Shown one piece after another: positions 15,157-16,459 of a stretch of DNA of 36,910 nt. The position numbers were made by a program, and so were the translations under genes. Under the pieces are notes generated by a model, which worked only from the letters and a program-made list of their open reading frames with translations, did not search any database and was not told the origin of the DNA. The DNA lies in assembly GCA_002691025.1 (NCBI GenBank), contig NZGT01000125.1, positions 6,817 to 43,726 of the forward strand, given 5' to 3'. Every line of letters starts with the position of its first letter. Positions within the stretch are counted from its first letter, which is position 1. This stretch comes from Spirochaeta sp. (GTDB lineage Bacteria > Myxococcota_A > UBA9160 > UBA4427).

Positions 15157-15477
15157 TTGAAAAAAGTGCTTTCTACATTGTTTTGGTCATTGGTCTTCGT
15201 TGCCGTTCCCACCCTGGCCTTCGCGGCTGATGGAGGCGGTACGGGTGCCGATGCCGGTATGAACGCCGGTAAGGCGATTGGCGCAGGCCTGGCGATTGGT
15301 GCCGCCGGTCTGGGAAGTAGTATCGGGATGGGGATGACCGCGGGTAACACCACAGCCGGTATTGCTCGAAACCCCGGTGCGGCCCCCGCCATGTTTACGA
15401 ACTTCATTCTGGGCATGGTGCTGCTCGAGTCCGTGGCGATTTACGGCCTCCTGATTGCATTCCTTCTCCTCCCCTGA
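15157..15477 (+). CDS. atpE: ATP synthase F0 subunit c, with signal-like N-terminus
   Basis: Proteolipid of the rotating F0 ring. I place the start at TTG 15157, which follows AGGAG at 15146-15150 with a 6-bp gap, giving 106 residues; the frame upstream overlaps atpB. Residues 1-23 look like a signal peptide (MKKVLSTLFWSL, cleavage likely after AFA), leaving about 83 residues, the normal length. The ion-binding Glu91 is in LLESVAIYGLL. Ser92 and Tyr96 match the E-S-x-x-x-Y part of sodium-binding rings, but the helix-1 Gln of sodium types is Met58, so proton coupling is more likely. The loop ARNPGAAP is typical. Confidence 0.93.
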   Translation: MKKVLSTLFWSLVFVAVPTLAFAADGGGTGADAGMNAGKAIGAGLAIGAAGLGSSIGMGMTAGNTTAGIARNPGAAPAMFTNFILGMVLLESVAIYGLLIAFLLLP

Positions 15478-15850
15478 AGTCGTGGCCCATTGAGGCGCCG
15501 GGCAAGAGCTCGGAGCGGATCTCACCCCGTGTGTTGGTCCGTTCCGAATACAATGCTCCTGCCCGGCGACTCGGGTTCCGCCTACCCCCGGTCCCGTTAG
15601 AGGGGTTGGGCGGATTGTCATCGTTTGATGACAGGGCTTGGCTAAAGCAAAGCCCATGCCAGCTTCCTTTCTTGAAGCCAGGCGGTTCCCAGCGTGCGCA
15701 AAGCTCTTTCGCGCAGTGGGGACGAGGATCCAGGCCCGACTTCGTGAACACGAGGTCTTGTTTGCGTCGCGAACTCCCGGGCTCCTGGTCTGCCTTCGCC
15801 GCCACCGGTCCGTTTGACATGCTGCTTGCCACGCGGGGAGGAGTTTGAGC
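15478..15850 (+). ncRNA. Candidate structured RNA region between atpE and tmk
   Basis: 373 bp without a gene I can support. At least five stem-loops follow one another. (1) 15496-15568: CGCCGGGCA with TGCCCGGCG, then GAGC with GCTC, then TCGGAGCGGA with TCCGTTCCGA (one G-U), in total about 23 pairs. (2) 15577-15614: about 12 pairs with one bulge. (3) 15616-15633: TGTCATC-GTTT-GATGACA. (4) 15634-15655: GGGCTT with AAGCCC. (5) 15730-15788: CCAGG and CCCG with CGGG and CCTGG, enclosing a smaller stem. No T-tracts follow, and no motifs of SRP RNA, tmRNA, RNase P RNA or common riboswitches were recognised. Transcription is not proven; it could be a 3' UTR, a leader of tmk or an independent RNA. 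Confidence 0.45.
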
Positions 15851-16459
15851 GTGTCCGGTTGCTTGATTGCCTTTGAAGGGATCGATGGCTCGGGGAAGAG
15901 CACCCAGGTCGAACGACTGGCGTCCGCCTTGCGGGCGGCCGGTCATGAAGTCTGTGTGACCCGGGAGCCCACGGATGGAGAACACGGTCGGAAGATCCGT
16001 GCTCTTTCGACGCGCGGAGCGCCGCTTTCCCTGGAAGAAGAGCTCGACCTCTTTGAGCAGGATCGCCGAGAACACGTAAAGGAGCTGATTGCTCCGGCGC
16101 TGGGTCGTGGCGAGGTCGTCATTACAGACCGTTACTTTCTGTCTACGGCCGCCTATCAAGGTTCACGGGGTTTGGACAGTGACGCCATTCTCCGATCTCA
16201 CGAAGAACTCTTCCCCATCCCGGACGTGGTCTTCTTCATCGATGTCCCGCCCGAAGCGGCTCTTCTCCGGGTCGAGGCACGGGGAGAAGAGATGAACGAG
16301 TCCTATGAAAAATTGGGCTTTCTGCAGGATGTGGCGAAGTTGTTTCGATCCTTTGAGAGGGCGTATATCTGCCCCATCTCCGGTGAGGGAAGCCCCGAAA
16401 CCGTCCATCAGGCGGTGTTGGCCCAACTGACCGCGCGACCCGGGCTGCCGTCTCTCTAG
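15851..16459 (+). CDS. tmk: Thymidylate kinase
   Basis: Phosphorylates dTMP to dTDP with ATP. 202 residues from GTG 15851, chosen because GGGGAGGAG (15835-15843) is at the right distance; the TTG at 15845 is too close to it. The P-loop reads FEGIDGSGKSTQ near residue 8-19, followed by [16 protein letters not shown], and the DRY motif is ITDRYFLSTAAYQGSRGL near residue 90. The C-terminal half is shorter than usual but complete. It is preceded by a structured intergenic region and faces the CPBP gene convergently, so it ends the rightward block. Confidence 0.94.
   Translation: MSGCLIAFEGIDGSGKSTQVERLASALRAAGHEVCVTREPTDGEHGRKIRALSTRGAPLSLEEELDLFEQDRREHVKELIAPALGRGEVVITDRYFLSTAAYQGSRGLDSDAILRSHEELFPIPDVVFFIDVPPEAALLRVEARGEEMNESYEKLGFLQDVAKLFRSFERAYICPISGEGSPETVHQAVLAQLTARPGLPSL

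Follow-up and report, generated by a model that had tools for sequence, protein, structure and literature searches.

The closest described system to the locus reported here, in both lineage and control, is the Pxr sRNA of Myxococcus xanthus, a 108 nt RNA with several stem-loops and a predicted sigma-54 promoter, whose gene has nla19 on one side and an NADH dehydrogenase gene on the other (PMC5568312). GlmY and GlmZ of Escherichia coli are likewise structured sRNAs, and are concerned with the cell envelope (PMC7073468). Among protein-coding genes, the PEP-CTERM regulon has an enhancer-like motif, sometimes repeated, separated by a spacer of 32–92 nt from a -24/-12 promoter (PMC1569441, PMC9850573); the motif and sigma-54 promoter are correlated with the presence of PrsK/PrsR (PMC1569441), and the RpoN promoter of one PEP-CTERM gene has been mapped (PMC9850573). 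6S RNA (RF00013) is a single-copy structured RNA of similar length. GlmY and GlmZ are also controlled by sigma-54, whose promoters have the consensus TGGCAC-N5-TTGC, with 10 nt between the GG and GC elements. Going by the published description of Pxr, the RNA that we describe differs from it in locus, length and distribution, and our covariance models R2 and R3 found nothing convincing outside the class. It differs from GlmY/GlmZ in lineage and structure, in having no Rfam match, and in the lack of Hfq in the relatives tested. It differs from the PEP-CTERM regulon in its motif (GTTCAC here, the TTTACA type in the published cases) and in that its product is an RNA, and from 6S RNA in its architecture.

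The gap between atpE and tmk in the window (the whole 36,910 nt stretch of DNA that was analyzed, from an uncultured relative of the myxobacteria) in our judgment probably contains a stand-alone structured RNA gene, driven by sigma-54 and located on the minus strand (Table 1). The conserved gene spans positions 15493–15633, about 145 nt, and was scored by the minus-strand covariance model R3 at 122.8 bits (E 3.5e-25), compared to 19.2 bits on the plus strand. In the source order the RNA heads toward the 3' end of atpE, and its expression is predicted from the sequence. Rfam 15 gave no family above its gathering threshold anywhere in the window, and none even at E 10, in agreement with the initial annotation, which had recognized no known family and no credible protein frame; we likewise found no such frame in 15440–15800. 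In eight homologous loci, Rfam gave two overlapping weak miRNA-type matches (34.8 bits with a threshold of 97, and 31.6 bits with one of 71), which look like chance matches to the long hairpin. A literature search found no description of an atpE/tmk RNA motif or of a Myxococcota structured RNA of this kind, and the main text of three genome-wide RNA discovery surveys does not mention Myxococcota or tmk. The family is absent from Rfam 15 and previously undescribed, and belongs to a known kind, since sigma-54-controlled sRNAs exist.

The initial annotation implied, although it did not state, that the RNA is read from the plus strand, and our models R1 and R2 were also built on that strand first, with R3 built on the minus strand. 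In the plus-strand alignment, A-C cells outnumbered G-U cells at paired positions (229 versus 68), contrary to what is expected of an RNA, and this exposed a strand error; the minus-strand alignment contained 326 G-U and only 72 A-C cells. The consensus fold (alifold) was -65.6 kcal/mol on the minus strand versus -33.5 on the plus, single sequences were more stable on the minus strand at 73 of 79 loci, and the loops of P5 were UNCG-like or GNRA in 42 of 65 cases on the minus strand and 6 of 65 on the plus. Because the first alignment had been fitted to the plus-strand model, its bias ran against the minus-strand conclusion. By pair asymmetry, fold energy, tetraloops and model score, the RNA is read from the minus strand, and the implied direction has to be reversed. 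The case illustrates how reading the wrong strand can conceal a gene, as the supposed single-stranded tail was a promoter, and the supposed leader was antisense.

Table 1. Features of the atpE/tmk region (positions in the window).
Feature	Position	Strand	Basis or remark
atpE (ATP synthase c subunit)	15160..15477	+	ORF, conserved neighbor
Structured RNA, predicted transcript	~15635 (+1) to ~15490; feature 15488..15635	-	Covariance model R3, fold z, covariation; ends inferred
Long hairpin P1+P2	15493..15571; P1 15555-15571 with 15493-15509; P2 15539-15546 with 15511-15518	-	Minus-strand alignment
P3 enclosing P4	15577..15614; P3 15609-15614 with 15577-15582; P4 15601-15605 with 15585-15589	-	Minus-strand alignment
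P5, first hairpin of the RNA	15614..15633	-	UUCG-type or GNRA tetraloop caps frequent in relatives
Apparent sigma-54 -24/-12 promoter, TGGCATGGGCTTTGCT	15646..15661; GG 15660-15659, GC 15648-15647	-	GG-N10-GC conservation
Enhancer-like site GTTCAC	15744..15749	-	83 bp upstream of the -24 element
Second enhancer-like half-site GTTCGC, weaker and imperfect	15769..15774	-	25 bp from the first, 108 bp from -24; in the tmk upstream region
tmk (thymidylate kinase)	15845..16459	+	ORF, conserved neighbor; divergent from the RNA gene

Covariation in homologous intergenic regions and folding relative to shuffles of the same composition had been named as checks in the initial annotation, and both upheld its proposal of a new structured RNA. 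The region 15440–15800 folds better than shuffles on either strand (z -4.8 on the plus, -4.2 on the minus), and the RNA part alone (15488–15636, minus strand) reaches z -6.7, with none of 200 shuffles as good. The neighboring 15661–15788 folds like shuffled sequence (z -0.71), and over 79 homologous loci the mean z was -2.76 in the core and -0.12 in the region beyond it. The chain of stem-loops that had been described over 15496–15788 is therefore only partly RNA. Its 73-nt hairpin (15496–15568) and the hairpins next to it are present and exceed chance, but the RNA is confined to 15493–15633, and 15661–15788 consists of promoter and enhancer DNA plus chance hairpins. We dropped the hairpin at about 15634–15655 (our P6), which overlaps the sigma-54 promoter and whose helix is not conserved among relatives. 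We also rejected an extension of the RNA 3' toward tmk, given the mean z beyond the core; the conserved GTGAAC of that region is simply the upstream GTTCAC sites in reverse complement.

Read 5' to 3' on the minus strand, the helices are P5, then P3/P4, then P1/P2, and they are supported by compensatory changes among homologous sequences. The final minus-strand alignment covers 76 loci and was made from sequence alone; in it, 91.7% of cells are paired and 37 of 42 pairs are doubly changed, with a covariation score of 0.425 versus 0.202 for shuffled columns (reached in 0 of 500) and at most 0.118 for slid controls. When all column pairs across the whole core were tested in an 80-locus alignment, the 21 top covarying pairs all fell within the model helices. 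P1 and P2 have 94.6% and 92.7% of their cells paired, respectively, and double changes in 24 of their 25 pairs; in P4, CCCC/GGGG is replaced by CUCC/GGAG in several lineages. Two of the loops are nearly invariant: the P4 loop (15590–15600, CUAACGGGACC, with 3' part ACGGGACC) has GGGACC at all 76 loci, and the P2 loop, which ends in ACGGGGUGA (15522–15530), has GGGGUGA at 73 of 76. We discarded a pseudoknot joining the P2 loop to P4, since P4 covaries with its own partner and the P2 loop does not vary. On the 3' side of P1 there is only a weakly U-rich stretch.

The conserved unpaired block 5' of P5 apparently represents a -24/-12 promoter rather than RNA. It contains GG-N10-GC at 78 of 79 loci, in keeping with the -24 GG / -12 GC rule of sigma-54 promoters (PMC1569441), and its consensus on the minus strand is (T/C)GGCAYG-N4-TTGC; the only match to GGCAYGN4TTGC in the whole window is at this promoter. 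The predicted +1, counted 25 nt from the first G, coincides with the foot of P5. RpoN is encoded in 12 of the 13 genomes searched, the source assembly, which is 85% complete, being the one without a match. Pairs of TTCAC sites occur upstream at 36 of 79 loci (25 bp apart in 33 and 22 bp in 3), compared to 0.7% of random windows, and the GTTCAC repeats are probably enhancer sites. The distance from the nearest site to the -24 element clusters at about 41, 51, 63–65, 74, 84 and 95 bp, steps of about one helical turn as for a looping activator, a regularity that is only suggestive because related genomes are not independent. Within 15661–15750 and the equivalent regions of relatives there is also a conserved minus-strand DNA motif, CGCAAGT(G/C)C or GCAACTCC, which lies about 30 bp downstream of GTTCAC at many loci and at other promoters of the set described below, and is possibly a further protein site. 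Related genomes have a very large repertoire of sigma-54 activators, with 21–47 TIGR02915-like NtrC-type proteins per genome (30 in genome G000). PrsR itself (TIGR02915) was considered as the activator and set aside, as it scored above the cut-off in only 1 of 25 relatives.

The same promoter architecture occurs at other genes. A search of 80 genomes of the order with GTTCAC-N58..88-GGCAYR-N4-TTGC gave 80 matches, 31 of which are the RNA, versus 4 for the reversed pattern. Among 27 other sites inspected, 4 precede genes for PEP-CTERM proteins (Pfam PF07589 above cut-off) and about 10 more precede a single family of secreted propeller proteins, most members of which end in DAWTGGW (ELAAGLDAWTGGW); these PEP-CTERM and propeller loci are L196, L197, L199, L203, L208–L213, L216, L219, L223, L225 and L226. 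This common architecture suggests that the RNA may have a role in cell-surface or exopolysaccharide control. Several genes in the set have a start codon only 13–15 nt after TTGC, suggesting near-leaderless mRNAs. The promoter, the enhancer sites and the genes that share them offer a direct way to test the regulation and the putative targets of the RNA.

The RNA is widespread and nearly always present once per genome. Searched by nucleotide sequence, 43 of 61 related genomes had a match, nearly always single and centered on the core. Of 80 genomes in the order, 73 carry one copy according to the first covariance model; one genome of the order had an extra match, antisense to the first and overlapping it. 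Later models extended the range to a second order of the class, where 9 of the 11 genomes from family f12 have the RNA. Outside the class, there was no convincing match in about 290 other genomes of a phylum sample (best E 0.115 with R2 and 0.18 with R3). Scanning about 85,000 genomes of named species for a sequence pattern yielded 52 loci, mostly titled Myxococcota or Deltaproteobacteria, and the final model confirmed all but one; the exception, L036, titled Gammaproteobacteria, was discarded as a chance match. The pattern was not found in viral contigs. Genome G041 has another, weak match to the model (contig C338:6818-6952, 36 bits, E 2e-4), possibly a paralog. Presence once per genome throughout one large lineage suggests an important regulatory job, and an RNA that is near-universal and single-copy in a whole bacterial class, yet absent from Rfam, likely does something important.

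The gene is most likely to encode a sigma-54-activated, trans-acting regulatory RNA with two ACGGG loops. We infer that an NtrC-type enhancer-binding protein, bound to the GTTCAC repeats that lie 83 and 108 bp upstream of -24, would contact the -24/-12 promoter, at which RNA polymerase with sigma-54 would initiate at about 15635. The transcript would fold as P5, P3/P4 and P1/P2, and would end after P1, a long GC-rich hairpin, at the weakly U-rich stretch. Acting in trans, it would display the same G-rich motif in the loops ACGGGACC and ACGGGGUGA, and these nearly invariant loops are likely its working parts. Their most likely role is pairing with C-rich or ribosome-site sequences in target mRNAs, with protein binding as the alternative. 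The evidence that bears on the mode of action is the conservation of the loops, and we give antisense pairing slightly less than an even chance. Hfq was found in none of the 13 genomes searched, so the classical Hfq-dependent sRNA route would be unavailable. The lack of Hfq would also suit a different main action, in which the two ACGGG loops bind or titrate a protein in the manner of CsrB or 6S RNA, as would the occurrence of a common motif in separate hairpins that is nearly invariant across the class. However, the obvious GGA-binding partner, CsrA, is present in only 5 of the 13 relatives searched, and the P2 loop lacks GGA, making for a weak case for CsrA titration; protein binding as the main action is possible, and we consider it less probable than antisense pairing. 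It is conceivable, as a speculative extension that we regard as doubtful, that this essentially universal single-copy RNA is the RNA arm of a class-wide sigma-54 regulon of the cell surface, including the PEP-CTERM and secreted propeller proteins, working free of Hfq through its two G-rich loops, possibly within a new ribonucleoprotein.

The plus strand also folds well, and nearly every genome of the order has the RNA in the atpE/tmk gap, which could indicate a plus-strand tmk leader, or a 3' UTR of atpE, regulating tmk in cis. We consider this very unlikely, as the G-U/A-C asymmetry, alifold energies, tetraloops and sigma-54 promoter all favor the minus strand, and the spacer toward tmk folds at chance level. 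A tmk leader or riboswitch would lie on the same strand as tmk, and 5' of it, in all carriers, whereas in the order the RNA is on the opposite strand. In family f12 the cassette is inverted relative to its orientation in the order, yet it still adjoins tmk and in most cases occupies the atpE/tmk gap. A cis leader of tmk would be lost by this inversion, so that, judged by gene order, the RNA is a transcription unit of its own, autonomous from tmk. At seven of the f12 loci (L180, L182, L183, L184, L187, L189 and L190), the 3' end of the RNA is only 10–88 nt before the start of tmk.

An element acting at the DNA level without transcription, such as a cruciform, recombination site or binding site, would be compatible with the strong inverted repeats and the one inversion relative to the neighbors, but offers no reason for 326 G-U versus 72 A-C cells on one strand and does not explain the UUCG/GNRA caps or a promoter with its +1 at the first helix, and is highly improbable. 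We regard it as just as improbable that the RNA is a divergent form of some universal RNA already known, with 6S as the chief candidate, even though it is single-copy, near-universal in the order and about the right size, and Rfam 6S matched in only 2 of the 80 genomes. Even at E 10 the window matched no Rfam family, and the RNA forms three hairpins under a sigma-54 promoter rather than the one long bubble hairpin of 6S. In addition, four genomes (G033, G037, G041 and G044) carry both the RNA and a separate 6S-like locus, which refutes the 6S identity in them provided that the second locus is a genuine 6S. The 6S-like loci are L192, L193, L194 and L195, indicating that 6S in these bacteria is divergent and mostly missed by the Rfam model.
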